Shown: one piece after another, positions 18,756 through 27,126 of the stretch | Layout: every line of letters starts with the position of its first letter | Position numbering within the stretch: position 1 is the stretch's first letter | Source: an uncultured Flavobacteriales bacterium | GTDB lineage: Bacteria > Bacteroidota > Bacteroidia > Flavobacteriales_G > Salibacteraceae | DNA: 64,000 nt | Reading direction: 5' to 3' | NCBI GenBank assembly: GCA_937121175.1 | Contig: CAKZKD010000012.1 | Span: 62,001-126,000 of the forward strand | Program-made: the position numbers and the translations under genes | Notes under the pieces: model-generated | Database searches by the model: none | Seen by the model: only the letters and a program-made list of their open reading frames with translations | What the model was told of the DNA's origin: nothing

Positions 18756-18787
18756 GCCACTAGTTGTATGCCATTAAAAAAAAGAAA

Positions 18788-18849
18788 AGCCACCGCACGC
18801 TCAAGCACATTTAATTTTGCTCGTACCTCACAAAATCAAAAGAGCTTTC
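18788..18849 (+). repeat. Left copy of the island's ~62-bp imperfect direct repeat
   Basis: Runs from AGCCACCGCACGCTCAAG to AGAGCTTTC and matches 26957-27019 at roughly 53 of 63 positions with one gap (counted by hand). The core CGTACCTCACAAA is identical. Confidence 0.8.
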
Positions 18850-18900
18850 ACTTCCCAACCACCACCCAATCATAAAGAGTTTGTTACAACACTGATGGAT

Positions 18901-18963
18901 TTGTCCCAAGTTTATTTGATTTTCGGGACAACCAGTCCCGTTTATTTACTACTTTTGGGACAA
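18901..18963 (+). promoter_or_regulatory. Four-half-site GGGAC/GTCCC operator of the island promoter
   Basis: TTGTCCCAA (18901-18909), CGGGAC (18924-18929), GTCCCG (18935-18940) and TTGGGACAA (18955-18963) form a nested dyad. GGGAC core centres lie 22, 10 and 22 bp apart, all close to whole helical turns, around a centre at ~18932. The last site overlaps the -7 box and abuts the ATG. Antitoxins of the AbiEi type bind inverted repeats in their own promoters, so autorepression is the natural reading (inference). Confidence 0.7.
18950..18957 (+). promoter_or_regulatory. -7 box TACTTTTG of the island operon
   Basis: Perfect TAnnTTTG match ending 5 bp before ATG 18963 and overlapped by the rightmost GGGAC half-site. 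The predicted transcription start would be at or next to the ATG, giving a nearly leaderless mRNA. Confidence 0.55.
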
Positions 18964-19544
18964 TGTTAGACTTAAAGACCATAAAGACTAAGGTCAATAA
19001 AGGAGATATCTTTTTTATTGCCGACTTCACCGAGTTAGGTAATTATGAGGCTGTACGTAAGTCTTTGCAGCGCCTAACAAAGGACGATTGCATTAAACGG
19101 ATTGCAAAAGGAATATACTTTTTACCTAAAAAGCATGAGCGTCTTGGCATTATTTACCCACACGCTGAACAAATCGCTAAAGCCATAGCCAAACGTGACA
19201 AAGCAAGGGTAATAGCCACTGGTTCAACTGCTCTAAATCTATTGGGATTGTCAACACAGATTCCTATGAACGTTGTGTTCTTAACTGATGGCTCTGCTAG
19301 AAACATAAAAGTGGGAAACCAAACTATTCAGTTTAAAAAGACAAACCCAAAAAACCTGAGTATTGAACACCGATTGACAAATCTTATAATTCAAGCATTA
19401 AAAGCAATTGGAGAAAAGAACGTTACACAAGAACAAACGGATAAAATACACACGATAATCGATGAAAGTGGTGAGCAAGAACTCATTTATCAAAATTTGA
19501 CAAACGCACCTATTTGGGTACAAAAAACAATATTGAGAAAATGA
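18963..19544 (+). CDS. DUF6088 / AbiEi-like type IV antitoxin and probable autorepressor
   Basis: 193 residues. The N-terminal ~60 residues look like a winged helix (IADFTELGNYEAVRKSLQRLTKDDCIKRIAKGIYFLP), followed by the AbiEi-type body (RVIATGSTALNLLGLSTQIPMNVVFLTDG). Type IV antitoxins counter a nucleotidyltransferase toxin without binding it and repress their own operon. The next gene is the matching AbiEii-like toxin, overlapping by 4 bp (ATGA). It is the first gene of an operon that continues into hsdM, hsdS and hsdR, so its repression would also govern the restriction system. Confidence 0.85.
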   Translation: MLDLKTIKTKVNKGDIFFIADFTELGNYEAVRKSLQRLTKDDCIKRIAKGIYFLPKKHERLGIIYPHAEQIAKAIAKRDKARVIATGSTALNLLGLSTQIPMNVVFLTDGSARNIKVGNQTIQFKKTNPKNLSIEHRLTNLIIQALKAIGEKNVTQEQTDKIHTIIDESGEQELIYQNLTNAPIWVQKTILRK

Positions 19545-20524
19545 ACAATTGGTTGTCACTATCAAAAGAGGAACAGGTTGAGTTATTTACTCAAATTGGT
19601 GTAAACACAAACTTACCACCCCAGGCTGTTGAAAAAGACGCATGGGTTACACTAATGCTACGGATGATATTTACTTCTGATTTAGCAAATCACTTAATAT
19701 TCAAAGGCGGAACTTCATTGAGCAAAGCTTTTAATTTGATTCAACGTTTTTCAGAAGATATTGATTTAGGAATTGACAGAAGGTTTTTAGGGTTTGAAGG
19801 AGAACTATCGAAAGGACAAATCCGAAGGCTGAGAAGAGCTTGTCACACATTTGTTTCAACCGATTTAGCAGAATTGCTGCAAAAACAATTGGTAGAATAT
19901 GGGGTTGATGAAAGCCACTTTGAACTAATTGTAGAAAACCCACAAGTATCTGATCAAGACCCTGAAACCATAAAAGTGAACTATCAATCACTATTTGATG
20001 AGGTAGCTTATCTACCTAAAAGAGTATTAATTGAAGTGAGTTCAAGATCATTAATTGAACCCAACCAAGAAGTTGCAATAAAATCTATGATTGATGAGCA
20101 TTATTCTGAAACGGATTTTGCAGAAACAGAATTTGTTGTAAACACAACCAATCCTCAAAAAACATTTTTAGAAAAACTCATTCTGCTACATGAAGAATTT
20201 CAAAAACCACAAGAGAAAATTAGGCATCTACGTATGTCAAGACATTTCTATGATATTGGGCAAATACTAGATTCTGAATATGGGCAAGCTGCTATAAAAA
20301 ACACAGCTCTTTTTGAAAATATCATTGCTCACAGAAGAGTATTAACACCAATGAAAACAACAGATTATGACACTTTGAACTTACAAAGTCTCAATATTAT
20401 TCCACCAGATGAATTCTTGGATAATTACAAATCTGATTACAAGGAGATGCGGAGCAGTATGATATATGGCGAATCACTAGATTTTGATACGCTACTTGAA
20501 AAAATAATAAACGAATTGAAATAA
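19541..20524 (+). CDS. AbiEii/AbiGii-type nucleotidyltransferase toxin
   Basis: 327 residues from the ATGA overlap at 19541; an upstream in-frame start at 19514 would overlap the antitoxin gene more deeply. The nucleotidyltransferase core is clear: FKGGTSLSKAF (residues 54-64) and RFSEDIDLGID (69-79), the GGTxxxK and S-x-D-I-D motifs of the family. RHFYDIGQIL near residue 235 is also conserved. AbiEii toxins transfer nucleotides to RNA targets in other systems; the target here is unknown. hsdM starts 5 bp downstream. Confidence 0.88.
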   Translation: MNNWLSLSKEEQVELFTQIGVNTNLPPQAVEKDAWVTLMLRMIFTSDLANHLIFKGGTSLSKAFNLIQRFSEDIDLGIDRRFLGFEGELSKGQIRRLRRACHTFVSTDLAELLQKQLVEYGVDESHFELIVENPQVSDQDPETIKVNYQSLFDEVAYLPKRVLIEVSSRSLIEPNQEVAIKSMIDEHYSETDFAETEFVVNTTNPQKTFLEKLILLHEEFQKPQEKIRHLRMSRHFYDIGQILDSEYGQAAIKNTALFENIIAHRRVLTPMKTTDYDTLNLQSLNIIPPDEFLDNYKSDYKEMRSSMIYGESLDFDTLLEKIINELK

Positions 20525-20529
20525 ACAGT

Positions 20530-22122
20530 ATGTCTGAAGACCATAAAAAAATATTGAAACAACAGCTTTGGAATATTGCTGATACGCTCAGAGGAAAAAT
20601 GAATGCAGATGAATTCCGTGACTATATATTAGGGTTCATTTTTTACAAATACCTAAGTGAAAAGATGGAGATTTTCGCTAACCAAATCTTGAAACAAGAC
20701 AATGTCAAATTTCGAGAGATCACTCCTACAATGTCTGATTATGATGAATACCTAAAAGCCATCAAAGAAGAAGCACTAGAGAAATTGGGTTATTTTTTAA
20801 AACCAGAAGAGTTGTTTTCTGAAATAGCTTTAAGAGGAAAAGGAGAAAATAATGAAGAAGACCATTTTGATGAAGAGAAAACAGGTTTCATACTAGAAGA
20901 CGTACAAAAAATATTACTCAATATTCAAACGAGTACAATGGGTACGGATAGTGAAGAGGATTTTGATAATCTCTTCGAAGACATGGACTTAAACAGTACG
21001 AAACTTGGTAAAACTCCAGAAGCTAGAAATACCATCATTGCCAAAGTATTAACTCATCTTGATAAAATTGATTTCAAATTAGAACATACTGAATTAGATG
21101 TACTTGGGGATGCCTATGAATATTTGATTGGTCAATTTGCAAGTAATGCAGGTAAAAAAGCAGGTGAGTTTTATACACCTCAAGAAGTTTCTACAATCTT
21201 GGCAAAGATTGTTACCACAGGTAAACAAAAATTGAAGTCTGTTTATGATCCAACATGTGGCTCGGGTTCATTACTCCTTCGTGTAGCAAAAGAGGTAGAT
21301 GATGTAGGTGATTTTTACGGACAAGAAATGAACCGTACCACCTATAACTTGGCACGAATGAATATGATATTACATGGCGTGCATTACCGTGAATTTGATA
21401 TTAAACAAGAAGATACTTTAGAGCGACCACAGCACATTGAAATTGAGTTTGAAGCCATTGTAGCCAACCCTCCTTTCTCTGCCAAATGGAGTGCCAACCC
21501 CTTATTTACAAGTGATGACCGTTTTAGCCAGTATGGGAAATTAGCACCTAGTAGTAAAGCAGATTTTGCTTTTGTGCAGCACATGATTCATCATTTGGCT
21601 GAAAATGGAACTATGGGAATCATTTTGCCCCATGGTGTATTATTTAGAGGTTCGGCAGAGCAACATATTAGGAGATATTTAATTGAGAATAAAAATTATT
21701 TAGATGCAGTAATCGGGTTGCCAGCCAACATTTTCTACGGAACAAGTATTCCAACTTGTATTTTGATATTTAAAAAATGTAGAGAAAACCCAGATGATGT
21801 ATTGTTTATTGATGCGAGTAACGGTTATGATAAGGCAAAAAACCAAAATCAACTTAAAGATAAACACATAGAAAAAATAGTTGAAACCTACCGCAACAGA
21901 ACGGAATTAGAAAAATACAGCCACAAAGCCACCCTAGCAGAAATTGCTAAAAACGATTACAACCTAAACATGCCAAGGTATGTAGATACATTTGAAAAAG
22001 AAACTGATATTGATATTGAAGCTGTTGCTGAAAGCATTAAGGAAGTAGATGATGCTATGGTTGATAATGATGAAATAATCAAAGAATTCTGTCAAGATCT
22101 AAAAATTTCAGCACCTTTTTAG
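20530..22122 (+). CDS. hsdM: Type I restriction-modification DNA methyltransferase subunit M
   Basis: 530 residues. An N-terminal helical HsdM_N domain (LWNIADTLRGKMNADEFRDYILGFIFYKYLSEK) precedes the N6-adenine methylase core: GEFYTPQEV, the SAM motif DPTCGSGS (240-247) and the catalytic NPPF (313-316). With HsdS it methylates the recognition site; with HsdR it forms the restriction complex. It is fused transcriptionally to the toxin-antitoxin pair upstream (5-bp gap) and to hsdS downstream (2-bp gap). Confidence 0.97.
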   Translation: MSEDHKKILKQQLWNIADTLRGKMNADEFRDYILGFIFYKYLSEKMEIFANQILKQDNVKFREITPTMSDYDEYLKAIKEEALEKLGYFLKPEELFSEIALRGKGENNEEDHFDEEKTGFILEDVQKILLNIQTSTMGTDSEEDFDNLFEDMDLNSTKLGKTPEARNTIIAKVLTHLDKIDFKLEHTELDVLGDAYEYLIGQFASNAGKKAGEFYTPQEVSTILAKIVTTGKQKLKSVYDPTCGSGSLLLRVAKEVDDVGDFYGQEMNRTTYNLARMNMILHGVHYREFDIKQEDTLERPQHIEIEFEAIVANPPFSAKWSANPLFTSDDRFSQYGKLAPSSKADFAFVQHMIHHLAENGTMGIILPHGVLFRGSAEQHIRRYLIENKNYLDAVIGLPANIFYGTSIPTCILIFKKCRENPDDVLFIDASNGYDKAKNQNQLKDKHIEKIVETYRNRTELEKYSHKATLAEIAKNDYNLNMPRYVDTFEKETDIDIEAVAESIKEVDDAMVDNDEIIKEFCQDLKISAPF

Positions 22123-22124
22123 AA

Positions 22125-23411
22125 ATGGCAGAAAAAAAGAACATACCGAAATTACGATTTCGTGAATTTTATGGAAATTGGAATGATGAACCAATGGGGA
22201 ATTCGTACTCTTTTAAAGTCACAAATTCATTTTCTAGGGACAATCTTAGCGATAGCGATAGCGATGGAGAGGTGAAAAATATTCATTATGGAGATATTCA
22301 CAAAAAATTTCCTACTCTGCTAGATATTACTAGAGAAGCCATCCCTTTTATCAAACCTGATGTTTCCATTGAAAGAATTTCAAAAGAAAACTATTGTATT
22401 GAAGGGGATATGATTTTCGCTGATGCATCAGAAGATATTAATGATGTTGGTAAAGCAATTGAAATTATCAATACAAATAAGGAAAAATTACTGTCTGGTC
22501 TTCACACAATTTTGGCAAGACCTGATTTACAAAAATTAACCATAGGTTTTGGAGGGTATTTATTTAAATCTGAATTTGTCAGAACCCAAATCCAAAAGGA
22601 ATCTCAAGGAACAAAAGTTTTAAGTATTTCAGCTACAAGGCTTTCAAAAATTAGTTTGAAATTTCCTTCTGACGAAAAAGAACAAACCAAAATAGCGTCC
22701 TTCTTCTCTGCTATTGATGAAAAGATACTAGCTCTTAAAAAGAAAAAAGAACTGCTGGAAGAATACAAAAAAGGAGTCGCTCAAAAACTGTTTTCTCAGG
22801 AGATACGATTTAAAGATGAGAATGGGAAGAATTATCCTGATTGGGAAGAAAAGTATTTAGGAGGATTATTTGAGAGGGTAATTACAAAGAATAAAGAGAA
22901 TAATTTAAACGTCCTTACTATTTCAGCACAAAAAGGATTATTAAATCAGAAAGAATATTTTAATAAATCTGTTTCAGCAAAGGATTTAACAGGATACTAT
23001 TTAATTGAAGAAAATGATTTTGCATATAATAAGAGTTATTCAAAAGGATACCCTTTAGGAGCAACTAAAAGGTTGAAAAAATATCCTAAGGGAGTTGTTT
23101 CAACATTATATATATGCTTTAGAATGAATACTAATAATAACATTTCATTTTATGAACAGTACTTTGATAGCGGTTTTTTAGATGAGGGATTAAGTAAAAT
23201 TGCTCAAGAAGGGGCAAGAAATCATGGACTATTAAATGTCAGCGTTGTTGAATTTTTCAGAGATATAGTTTTACCAAAACCACATATTTCTGAGCAAACT
23301 AAAATTGCTAATTTCCTTTCTGCCATTGATGAAAAAATAGCATTCGCAGATAAGAAATTGAAAGATTCAGAAAAGTGGAAAAAAGGACTATTACAAAAAA
23401 TGTTTTGCTAA
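22125..23411 (+). CDS. hsdS: Type I restriction-modification specificity subunit S
   Basis: 428 residues with two target recognition domains (about 1-165 and 245-385) separated and followed by similar conserved segments: EQTKIASFFSAIDEKILALKK in the middle and EQTKIANFLSAIDEKIAFADKK at the end. These repeats place the two TRDs for a bipartite target. TRD1 contains an in-frame hexamer repeat, three AGCGAT units at 22248-22265 (SDSDSD). The bases recognised cannot be read from sequence. Confidence 0.95.
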   Translation: MAEKKNIPKLRFREFYGNWNDEPMGNSYSFKVTNSFSRDNLSDSDSDGEVKNIHYGDIHKKFPTLLDITREAIPFIKPDVSIERISKENYCIEGDMIFADASEDINDVGKAIEIINTNKEKLLSGLHTILARPDLQKLTIGFGGYLFKSEFVRTQIQKESQGTKVLSISATRLSKISLKFPSDEKEQTKIASFFSAIDEKILALKKKKELLEEYKKGVAQKLFSQEIRFKDENGKNYPDWEEKYLGGLFERVITKNKENNLNVLTISAQKGLLNQKEYFNKSVSAKDLTGYYLIEENDFAYNKSYSKGYPLGATKRLKKYPKGVVSTLYICFRMNTNNNISFYEQYFDSGFLDEGLSKIAQEGARNHGLLNVSVVEFFRDIVLPKPHISEQTKIANFLSAIDEKIAFADKKLKDSEKWKKGLLQKMFC

Positions 23412-23414
23412 ACT

Positions 23415-24053
23415 ATGAAGCAAACTAAAGACATATTAGCACAGCTAGAAGCGGAATACAGTAACATTGATTATTACACGATCATTATTGATAAGATTGA
23501 AAATAATGTAAATGAGAATCCAGATATAGCCATTGAAAGTTGCAAAGCATTGTTAGAAGGTCTTTCAAAATTTATTTGGAATCATGTTGATAGTGCTTAT
23601 GATAAAACTGTAGCAGACAAAATGGATTTTCATCCTTTGGTGAGAAAATCTATGAACAAGTTGGCTGAGCATAATGAAGATATAGAAATTGACTTTGTCA
23701 ATAAGCTTAACAAGCTCATTGTGTCTATTGGGGAATTACGAAATAGAAGAGGCGATATTTCTCACGGAAAACTTTCTCCAAAAGAATATTTTAGTGATAC
23801 CCAATTTTCTAATTTGGTAGTAAATATTACGGATAACATGCTTCATTATGATTTGCATTGTTTCTCAAAAGTAAACGCAGTAAAAGAACTAGAATATGAA
23901 GACAATCCTGAGTTCAATGAAAAATTAGATACTGAAAACGATTTTGGCTTTTTAAGCTACAGTAAAGCATTGTTTGAGCAAGATTTGGTTGCTTACGAAC
24001 AGCAGCTACAAGATCATTTAGAAACCACCGAATTAGAAGAAGTAGATGAGTAA
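23415..24053 (+). CDS. Abi_C-type abortive infection family protein inserted between hsdS and hsdR
   Basis: 212 residues, soluble and largely helical. PDIAIESCKALLEGLSKFIWNHV and GELRNRRGDISHGKLSPKE (residues ~106-124) match the C-terminal domain of abortive infection proteins (RN-x-x-x-D-x-x-H-G). Its role within a type I system is not established; it may be an independent abortive-infection effector or a regulator of restriction. It starts 3 bp after hsdS and overlaps hsdR by 8 bp, so its expression is tied to both. Confidence 0.75.
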   Translation: MKQTKDILAQLEAEYSNIDYYTIIIDKIENNVNENPDIAIESCKALLEGLSKFIWNHVDSAYDKTVADKMDFHPLVRKSMNKLAEHNEDIEIDFVNKLNKLIVSIGELRNRRGDISHGKLSPKEYFSDTQFSNLVVNITDNMLHYDLHCFSKVNAVKELEYEDNPEFNEKLDTENDFGFLSYSKALFEQDLVAYEQQLQDHLETTELEEVDE

Positions 24054-26952
24054 ACAATCGGAACAAATATTAGAACAACAATTGATTGCTCAACTTCAAA
24101 AGTTGGGGTATGATTTTACCGTAATCAATAGTGAAAAAGACTTGTTGCGTAATCTAAAATCTCAATTAGAAAAGCACAACAACATTACTTTTTCTCCAAC
24201 TGAATTTGACAAGGTGTTGAATATCCTAAGTAAAGGAACTGTTTTTGAAAAAGGTAAAATACTGCGAGAGAAACAGCATATTATTAGAGATAATGGAGAC
24301 AACCTGTATTTTGAGTTTTTAAATTCTGAATATTGGTGTAGAAATCAATATCAGGTCACCAATCAAATTACGCAAGAAGGTAAATACAAAAACCGTTATG
24401 ATGTAACACTTTTGATTAATGGCTTGCCTTTGGTTCAAATAGAACTCAAGCGTAGTGGTTTAGAATTGAAAGAAGCATTCAACCAAATTAATCGTTATCA
24501 GCGACATTCTTTTGGTTCGGGAAGTGCATTATTCCAGTACGTGCAAATATTTATTGTTAGCAACGGAAGAAATACAAAATATTACGCCAATAACAGAAGC
24601 CAGAGCTTCAAACAAACCTTCTTTTGGACAGACAAAGAAAATAATAGAGAGACCAATATTCTTAATGGATTCACAGACTCATTTCTAGAAAAGTGCCACC
24701 TCAGTAAAATGATATGTAAATACATTGTACTGAATGAGGCACAAAAAATTCCAATGGTTTTGCGACCATACCAATACTATGCTGTAGAATCCATAATAGA
24801 TAGAGTTAAAAACTCTACTAAAAATGGGTACATCTGGCATACTACAGGTTCAGGAAAAACGTTAACGAGTTTTAAAGCCAGTCAGGTAATAATGAAACTA
24901 CCAGAAGTGCACAAAGTTGTATTTGTGGTAGATAGAAAAGATTTAGATTATCAAACTACTAAAGAATTTAACAGCTTTAGTGATGGTTGTATTGATGGAA
25001 CTGACAACACAAAAAATTTAGTACAACAATTTACAGGAACCTATAAAGACAGAAAAGGAGTATCCAAAAACTCCAATCTGATTGTTACCACTATTCAAAA
25101 GTTAAATTCGGCTATCAGTAAATTGAAGTATGAGGCGAAGATGGCTGAACTGAAAGACAAGAAAATTGTTTTCATTTTTGATGAATGCCATAGAAGTCAG
25201 TTTGGAGACACCCATAAACGCATTAAAGAATTTTTCAGCAACAGTCAACTATTTGGTTTTACAGGAACACCAATATTAGAACCCAATGCGAATAAAAGTG
25301 AAGCCATTGCTCGTACTACAAAAGACTTATTTGATGAATGTTTACATAAATATGTAATTACAGATGCCATTAAAGACGAGAATGTTTTAAAATTCTCTGT
25401 TGAGTATGTTGGTAGATACAAGAAGAAAGATTCTGCAACTGAAATAGATATTGAAGTTGAGGATATTGATACAAAAGAATTGATGGAGGATGAAAAACGA
25501 TTGGAAAAAATTTCCGATTACATCATTACCAATCATAGTCGTAAAACACACAGCAAAGAGTTTACAGCAATGTTCTGTATTAATAGTGTACCAACACTAA
25601 TTAAGTATTATGACATCTTAAAAAGGAAGAAAGTAGCCGGAGAACACAACCTAAAAATTGCCACTATATTTAGTTATGGAGCAAATGAGCCTGACCAAGA
25701 TGCAAATGGATTTATCAATTTTGAAGAAGATTTTGACAGTTTCGACTTAAACGTTGTTGCAGAAGACAGTCCACAATACAAAAAAAGTAAACACACTAGA
25801 GAGAAGCTAGATGAATACATTGAGGATTACAATCAGCTTTTTAATGTAAAATATAGCACAAAGGACAGTCAAGATTTCTACAACTATTACAACGATATTT
25901 CCAAAAAAGTAAAAGAGCGTAAAATTGATATCCTATTAGTAGTAAATATGTTTCTTACCGGCTTTGACAGTAAAACATTAAATACACTTTACGTAGATAA
26001 AAACTTACAACATCATGGTTTAATACAGGCTTACTCAAGAACTAATAGAATCTTGAATGAACAAAAATCACAAGGCAACATTGTAGTGTTCAGAAACCTA
26101 AAAAATAGGACGGATGAAGCCATTACTCTATTTAGCAACAAAGAGGCTCTTGAAGTAATCGTTATGCAACCTTATGAGGAATATGCCACCAAATTTGATG
26201 AAGCTTTTGAACAATTAAAACAGTACGCTCCTACTGTTGACAGTGTAAATGATTTAGTATCAGAAGAAGACGAGTTAAACTTTATCAAGGCATTTCGTGA
26301 TTTGATGCGTATCAAGAATATTCTTTCTGCATTTTCTGATTTTAAATGGGAAGGTTTACAAATGTCGGAACAAGAATTTGAAGACTATAAAAGCAAATAC
26401 CTTGACTTATACGACAAAGTAAAAAGCAATAATCAAAAAGAAAAAGTCTCCATTTTGGAAGATGTTGATTTTGAATTGGAGTTAATTCACCGAGACGAAA
26501 TTAATGTCACCTACATCATTCAACTTTTAATAAAGCTTAAAGCTGACACGCAAAAAGATACAAGGAAATCAGAGAAGGAAATTTTCAACCTACTAAATAC
26601 GGAAACTACGCTACGTAGTAAACGTGAATTAATAGAAAGATTTATTGAAGAGAATTTACCAATCATTGAAGACTCTGATGAAGTAATTCCAGAGTTTGAT
26701 AAATACTGGAGTAAAGAACAGCAAAAAGCATTTGACAAATTAGTCGGAGAAGAAAAACTCTCTTCTGAAAAAACAGAAAAACTAATTGAGGATTATCTGT
26801 TTGCTGAAAAAACGCCTCTTAGAGATGAAGTTTTAGAGCTTCTTGAAGGTGATAAACCGAGCTTATTACAACGGAAAAAACTAGGTGATAGAATACTTAG
26901 TCGAATAACCGATTTTGTAGAAACCTTTATAAATGGAATGACTGAAAATTAA
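24046..26952 (+). CDS. hsdR: Type I restriction endonuclease / translocase subunit R
   Basis: 968 residues. The N-terminal nuclease domain shows RYDVTLLINGLPLVQIELKR (D119, E133, K135; PD-(D/E)XK) and a following QxxxY-like helix (FNQINRYQR). The SF2 motor has Walker A TTGSGKT (266-272), DECH (379-382), FGFTGTP, and a C-terminal helical region. It needs HsdM and HsdS to cut unmodified DNA after translocation. Its stop is 4 bp before the right direct repeat, marking the end of the operon. Confidence 0.97.
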   Translation: MSKQSEQILEQQLIAQLQKLGYDFTVINSEKDLLRNLKSQLEKHNNITFSPTEFDKVLNILSKGTVFEKGKILREKQHIIRDNGDNLYFEFLNSEYWCRNQYQVTNQITQEGKYKNRYDVTLLINGLPLVQIELKRSGLELKEAFNQINRYQRHSFGSGSALFQYVQIFIVSNGRNTKYYANNRSQSFKQTFFWTDKENNRETNILNGFTDSFLEKCHLSKMICKYIVLNEAQKIPMVLRPYQYYAVESIIDRVKNSTKNGYIWHTTGSGKTLTSFKASQVIMKLPEVHKVVFVVDRKDLDYQTTKEFNSFSDGCIDGTDNTKNLVQQFTGTYKDRKGVSKNSNLIVTTIQKLNSAISKLKYEAKMAELKDKKIVFIFDECHRSQFGDTHKRIKEFFSNSQLFGFTGTPILEPNANKSEAIARTTKDLFDECLHKYVITDAIKDENVLKFSVEYVGRYKKKDSATEIDIEVEDIDTKELMEDEKRLEKISDYIITNHSRKTHSKEFTAMFCINSVPTLIKYYDILKRKKVAGEHNLKIATIFSYGANEPDQDANGFINFEEDFDSFDLNVVAEDSPQYKKSKHTREKLDEYIEDYNQLFNVKYSTKDSQDFYNYYNDISKKVKERKIDILLVVNMFLTGFDSKTLNTLYVDKNLQHHGLIQAYSRTNRILNEQKSQGNIVVFRNLKNRTDEAITLFSNKEALEVIVMQPYEEYATKFDEAFEQLKQYAPTVDSVNDLVSEEDELNFIKAFRDLMRIKNILSAFSDFKWEGLQMSEQEFEDYKSKYLDLYDKVKSNNQKEKVSILEDVDFELELIHRDEINVTYIIQLLIKLKADTQKDTRKSEKEIFNLLNTETTLRSKRELIERFIEENLPIIEDSDEVIPEFDKYWSKEQQKAFDKLVGEEKLSSEKTEKLIEDYLFAEKTPLRDEVLELLEGDKPSLLQRKKLGDRILSRITDFVETFINGMTEN

Positions 26953-26956
26953 CAAT

Positions 26957-27019
26957 AGCCAACGCAAGTTCAAGCACATTTAAAGTTTGTGCGTACCTCA
27001 CAAATTTAAAAGAGCTTTC
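26957..27019 (+). repeat. Right copy of the island's ~62-bp imperfect direct repeat
   Basis: Begins AGCCAACGCAAGTTCAAG and ends AGAGCTTTC; same orientation as 18788-18849. It is followed by CGCCAACGCTAAAAACG and the attC-like hairpin. Confidence 0.8.
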
Positions 27020-27056
27020 TCGCCAACGCTAAAAACGAAATGAATAAAATAAAAAC

Positions 27057-27126
27057 GGCATACAACAATATGTATAGTGCATAGCACCCTCCGTGATGCT
27101 ACGACACCATACATGGGACGTTCTAT
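27057..27126. other. attC-like imperfect hairpin at the right island edge
   Basis: Outer arm ATACAAC (27060-27066, one mismatch to RYYYAAC) faces GTTCTAT (27120-27126). Inside, ATGTAT (27070-27075) pairs with ATACAT (27109-27114), GTG (27077-27079) with CAC (27105-27107), and TAGCA (27082-27086) with TGCTA (27097-27101). Unpaired spacers of 3 and 5 nt separate outer and inner arms, and bulges make the stem asymmetric. The ~70-bp length and R-spacer-L layout resemble integron attC sites. Confidence 0.55.

Follow-up and report, generated by a model that had tools for sequence, protein, structure and literature searches.

A predicted operator for the autoregulation of a type IV AbiE toxin-antitoxin operon with restriction-modification genes in an uncultured Flavobacteriales bacterium

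In the AbiE system of Streptococcus agalactiae, the antitoxin AbiEi (6Y8Q) consists of a winged helix-turn-helix and a C-terminal domain, is encoded just before the toxin AbiEii and autoregulates through inverted repeats in the promoter (PMC7319586). Both this antitoxin and its Mycobacterium tuberculosis relative bind their promoter repeats as monomers, one per repeat, and repress; cooperativity is positive in the former and negative in the latter (PMC7319586). The streptococcal operator is built of two 23-bp repeats 3 bp apart, and that of Rv2827c-Rv2826c of M. tuberculosis (1ZEL) comprises four 23-bp sites with gaps of 13 and 4 bp (PMC7319586). The locus described here lies in a stretch of 64,000 nucleotides from an uncultured Flavobacteriales bacterium (contig CAKZKD010000012.1, positions 62,001 to 126,000), hereafter the window, to which all coordinates refer; every feature is given on the + strand. 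An array of short repeats in front of a DUF6088 gene was analysed, and it very likely serves as the operator through which a type IV AbiE operon regulates itself, working by the binding and repression scheme proposed below.

The operon comprises six genes on one strand, which overlap or are separated by at most 5 bp. The first, abiEi (18963-19544), encodes the DUF6088 antitoxin-repressor (DUF6088, 5.2e-66; PADLOC AbiEi, 1.3e-64). Directly downstream, with its start overlapping the abiEi stop (ATGA), abiEii (19541-20524) encodes a nucleotidyltransferase toxin of the DUF1814 type (AbiEii, 2.6e-38). After a gap of 5 bp follow hsdM (20530-22122), hsdS (22125-23411), an Abi_C/AbiJ-like gene (23415-24053) and hsdR (24046-26952). 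The DUF6088 protein was modelled as a winged helix-turn-helix with a pLDDT of 95.9 and carries the AbiEi-type C-terminal antitoxin domain. Its best full-length fold match was S. agalactiae AbiEi (Z 8.4, rmsd 4.6, 172 residues; Foldseek E 2.9e-4), with approximately 14-18% identity over the structural alignment, and Rv2827c was another near fold. AbiEi was reached by fold comparison only, as a sequence-profile search of the PDB with the DUF6088 protein returned nothing useful.

The four GTCCC/GGGAC half-sites were found exactly where the original prediction had placed them: GTCCC at 18903-18907, GGGAC at 18925-18929, GTCCC at 18935-18939 and GGGAC at 18957-18961, with centre spacings of 22, 10 and 22 bp. 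The two outer half-sites extend to 9 bp, as had been claimed (TTGTCCCAA, 18901-18909, and TTGGGACAA, 18955-18963). All sites also face one side of the helix, the centres at 0, 22, 32 and 54 falling within about 1.5 bp of a single face at 10.5 bp per turn. The array amounts to the inverted repeat GTCCC-N17-GGGAC present twice in tandem at a distance of 32 bp. The proximal operator O1 (18933-18963) is formed by the third and fourth half-sites, and the distal operator O2 (18901-18931), TTGTCCC (18901-18907)-N17-GGGACAA (18925-18931), is an auxiliary copy upstream of it. When up to three mismatches were allowed, the full four-site pattern gave one match in the window and none in 100 shuffles of it. 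The exact GTCCC-N17-GGGAC repeat occurs in the 3.7-Mb genome at these two places only, and no other genomic site with 0-1 mismatch was found with 6-bp arms. This confirms that the four half-sites are real and did not arise by chance.

The promoter could be located by its -7 box, TACTTTTG (18950-18957), which follows the Bacteroidetes consensus TAnnTTTG (PMC7366714); a sigma-70 promoter scan is uninformative for this phylum. The last half-site had been predicted to overlap this box and to touch the start codon, and indeed base 18957, the G of the box, is the first base of that half-site, and the ATG starts at 18963. The same register was observed in 90 of 95 proximal repeats of homologous promoters, in which the last base of TAnnTTTG is also the first of the right half-site; at the twelve neighbouring registers there was no case. 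No -7 box was found at the distal repeats of the homologous promoters scanned. Within the operon the only TAnnTTTG on the + strand is at 21987, so the promoter at the operator probably serves all six genes. Provided that transcription starts a few bases past the -7 box, the abiEi mRNA, whose ATG is directly behind the operator, would probably be leaderless. Such transcripts are uncommon in Bacteroides, where approximately 3.7% of 5' UTRs are shorter than 10 nt (PMC7366714).

Homologues of the DUF6088 protein were gathered from whole genomes, GTDB contigs and viral contigs, and 121 loci were scanned. The relatives on viral contigs were found by an alignment-based scan, a single-protein scan having given none. 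The AbiEii gene follows the DUF6088 gene in 109 of the 121 loci. A scan of the upstream regions, whose alignment the original prediction had proposed as a check, revealed a perfect inverted repeat of the form GTnnC-N17-GnnAC in nearly all of them. The spacer is 17 bp in almost all loci, 18 bp in a few from viral contigs and 16 bp in L031-L033; a clear repeat was not found upstream in L028, L142, L179 and L180. The idea of a conserved symmetric four-site array held in part: the single repeat with its -7 box is conserved and the exact 22-10-22 layout is not. L035, which is the closest relative with 89% identity, and L040 have no second copy, and in L036-L039 it lies at 53-54 bp. The conserved unit is one inverted repeat fused to the -7 box, with an optional second copy. 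Since L035 has one repeat, the array in the window represents a duplication of the family operator and not a layout that the family has kept.

Linkage to the restriction genes is rarer in the family. The association with hsdMSR was conserved only in L036 and L037, and L035 has an HsdM match of 58 aa. In L037, a close relative from an uncultured Aquimarina, the operator, DUF6088 and hsdMSR are kept and AbiEii is reduced to about 97 residues; the toxin may have been lost there while the regulator stayed on beside the restriction genes.

A second repeat of the same class was detected in about a dozen homologous promoters; when up to two mismatches were allowed, 21 sites were counted where 2.0 were expected. 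Its distance is 32 bp in the window, 33 bp in L164 and 41-45 bp in several others, besides the 53-54 bp mentioned above. For same-class copies within about 60 bp, with offsets selected after the fact, multiples of 10.5 bp are preferred (R 0.73, p ~0.002, one value per clade, post hoc). When all second sites up to 160 bp were taken, other classes included, the phasing was weak (R 0.38). Offsets of whole helical turns would fit cooperative binding.

The half-sites fall into classes, of which GTCCC (46 loci), GTCAC (24), GTCGC (18) and GTAAC (14) are the main ones among 108 non-redundant loci, the rest being rare. Upstream second operators of another class than the proximal one were seen in L030, L068, L075 and L108; in L108 the other-class operator is followed by the apparent start of a GTCGC-class DUF6088 gene, giving the impression of an abiE locus placed upon the remains of a different one.

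In order to find which protein positions follow the operator class, the whole protein was ranked by mutual information over 49 representatives sharing less than 70% identity within a class. The top columns were K33 (z 13.4), R32 (13.0), Q36 (11.9) and E29 (10.3), and the next one reached 5.0. In the model these residues (i, i+3, i+4, i+7) occupy one face of the recognition helix formed by codons 28-40 (19044-19082). The GTCGC class shows K29, a small or polar residue 32, K33 and E36 in 12 of 12 cases; in GTAAC residue 33 is aliphatic and residue 36 is F or H, in GTCAC residue 32 is R and residue 33 is Q or K, and in GTCCC residue 29 is E or D, residue 32 is R or K and residue 33 is K or R. From what is expected in DNA recognition, glutamine goes with adenine, and lysine or arginine with the guanine opposite cytosine. 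The variable letters of the half-site are very probably read by these four residues of the antitoxin. One of the 43 residue combinations, ERKQ, maps to two classes; it is the combination of the window protein itself, where the rule cannot separate GTCCC from GTCAC (L075, L164). Seven distant homologues (L150, L151, L152, L154, L155, L175 and L176) combine D32 with GTCAG half-sites, a class outside the stated rule.

On a tree from which the helix had been left out, at least 19 changes of operator class are counted, and therefore kinship alone does not explain the match between residues and operator. Among identity-matched pairs, approximately 2.7-3.1 of the four residues differ when the operators are different, compared with 0.2-2.0 when they are the same. 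At ten other positions of the helix the two groups of pairs show equal differences, except in the closest identity bin. All informative independent pairs on the tree pointed in the expected direction, with too few well-supported branches for significance. The rule relating residues to class was written down before further loci were examined. It was right for 27 of 29 new operators, and the closest training protein for 20 of 29. Below 75% identity the figures were 19 of 21 for the rule and 12 of 21 for the nearest kin, and where the two disagreed the rule prevailed by 8 to 1 (p 0.039). The 29 scored loci are those for which the rule gave a class and the repeat was perfect; another 15 had no prediction or no such repeat, seven of them of the D32/GTCAG type, and four loci were left unscored since the segment could not be placed.

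Taken together, the conserved repeat, its register with the -7 box, the covariation of residues and half-site and the 27 of 29 predictions indicate that the DUF6088 protein almost certainly binds the repeats in the window and probably represses the promoter of abiEi-abiEii-hsdM-hsdS-Abi_C-hsdR. The original prediction that the antitoxin encoded first in the operon recognizes the half-sites was strongly supported by the conservation, the recognition-helix covariation and the hold-out test; its emphasis on the symmetric four-site array found partial support. Two DUF6088/AbiEi protomers would sit on GTCCC and GGGAC, 22 bp or approximately two helical turns apart, each with helix 28-40 in the major groove and residues 29, 32, 33 and 36 reading the variable bases. 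As the -7 box ends in the base that opens the right half-site, the bound protein would compete with the sigma factor for the same DNA. Transcription of the operon, the hsd genes presumably included, would be held down until free antitoxin runs low, as in negative autoregulation. The second repeat, approximately three turns upstream and devoid of a -7 box, would hold a second pair on the same face and so most likely strengthen repression, perhaps with cooperation between the repeats.

It is possible, if rather doubtful, that only the proximal repeat works, the distal one being a duplicate that is weak or in decay, and that the 22-10-22 symmetry has no function of its own. Such a reading agrees with the single repeat of most homologues and of the nearest relative, and with the restriction of the -7 box to the proximal repeat. 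However, the half-sites of both copies in the window are intact, the number of second repeats is about ten times that expected by chance, and in the post hoc phasing test they tend to lie at distances close to whole helical turns. It is very unlikely that another regulator, such as a host global repressor, a sigma-related factor or a control protein of the restriction-modification genes, occupies the repeats instead of DUF6088. The repeats do overlap a promoter, where many factors bind, and the hsd genes share the operon, but in distant species the half-site letters vary together with four residues of the neighbouring DUF6088 protein, from which they were also predicted, and the motif is otherwise absent from the genome.

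Two further readings would assign the repeats a role other than that of an operator. The inner pair, CGGGACAACCAGTCCCG-TTTATTT (18924-18940), was listed as terminator-like and might be an intrinsic terminator or attenuator insulating the operon from read-through. This is very improbable: the pair lies upstream of the -7 box and thus outside the operon's own transcript, it could not form in homologues that have a single repeat or a different spacing, and terminator-like sites in the region number 7 against 4.7 expected. That the repeats are recombination sites of a mobile cassette is suggested by the cassette-like unit, bounded by repeats of its own, that encloses the operon, and is nevertheless a highly improbable explanation, for the cassette ends and hairpins are separate elements outside the operator, which is found both in their presence and in their absence and keeps a fixed register with the -7 box.

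Compared with S. agalactiae AbiE, the operon in the window would be autoregulated likewise, through a different operator: instead of 23-bp repeats 3 bp apart, its operator has short GTnnC half-sites with a 17-bp spacer, a -7 box included in the repeat and two tandem copies. The Rv2827c operator resembles the array in having four half-sites, in two pairs over the promoter of an AbiEi-fold antitoxin, and differs in family, in spacing and in its negative cooperativity. The autoregulation by AbiEi was already known; what appears to be new is the 17-bp spacing, the fusion with the -7 box, the four-residue code and the option of a tandem copy. The WYL-domain family, whose members sit with defence islands (PMC9122601), is alike in that a DNA-binding regulator is placed with phage-defence loci. 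WYL-domain regulators have a protein fold other than that of DUF6088, and the regulator described here is itself an antitoxin.

With these results DUF6088, so far without a known function, would become a family of antitoxins whose operator is defined and predictable. The code is open to tests by single substitutions, and the operators and cross-talk of many AbiE systems could be predicted from the protein sequence. In all five pairs of co-resident DUF6088 copies that were seen, the operator classes differ, for which chance is estimated by us from the class frequencies at about one in five; three pairs are in G218 (L012/L181/L182), one in G820 (L163/L171) and one in Membranihabitans maritimus (L107/L109). 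This hints at insulation between the copies. A wider proposal, which we hold tentatively and rate somewhat below an even chance, is that the four-residue, one-helix code has been switched many times so that co-resident AbiE loci avoid cross-talk, and that in this lineage the operator has come to act as the master switch of a mobile cassette with type I restriction-modification. The operon in the window raises the possibility that a toxin-antitoxin repressor controls an entire set of defence genes, those for restriction included.

The abiE-hsd operon looks like one integron-type cassette of about 8.3 kb (18763-27126). Its probable left end, GTTGTATGCC (18763-18772), is the perfect reverse complement of GGCATACAAC (27057-27066), which opens the attC-like site at the right end (GGCATACAAC AATATGTATA...CATACATGGGAC GTTCTAT, 27057-27126). 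This site forms a bottom-strand hairpin with a modest fold z-score of -1.9 to -2.1, and an Rfam search for attC gave no match. A hairpin that is multicopy in this genome, AAGCACATTT...AAAAGAGCTT (18803-18847), lies on the left, and one of the same family on the right (26972-27017). When 10-base complementary ends followed by an attC-like start were screened for, the window alone was positive. Similar ends were found in L042, L082 and L090 with a loose pattern that gives about 4 matches in shuffled controls. The same hairpins and ends surround AbiE genes in Maribacter (L090) and in a Flavobacteriales MAG (L082), and in the genome of the window they surround an MZA-like defence set beside a tyrosine recombinase on contig C4. 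The recombinase scored 199.6 of 265 and 217.8 of 220 bits against the curated integron-integrase cut-offs, in both cases below. Cassette arrays were observed in the same genome (G000) on C4 (84246-107900; L211, L197) and on C9 (L196). The C4 array begins with the 396-aa tyrosine recombinase, followed by dcm-MzaB-MzaC-MzaD-like genes and then by more cassettes, with attC-like sites ending in TATACTAAACGTT between them.
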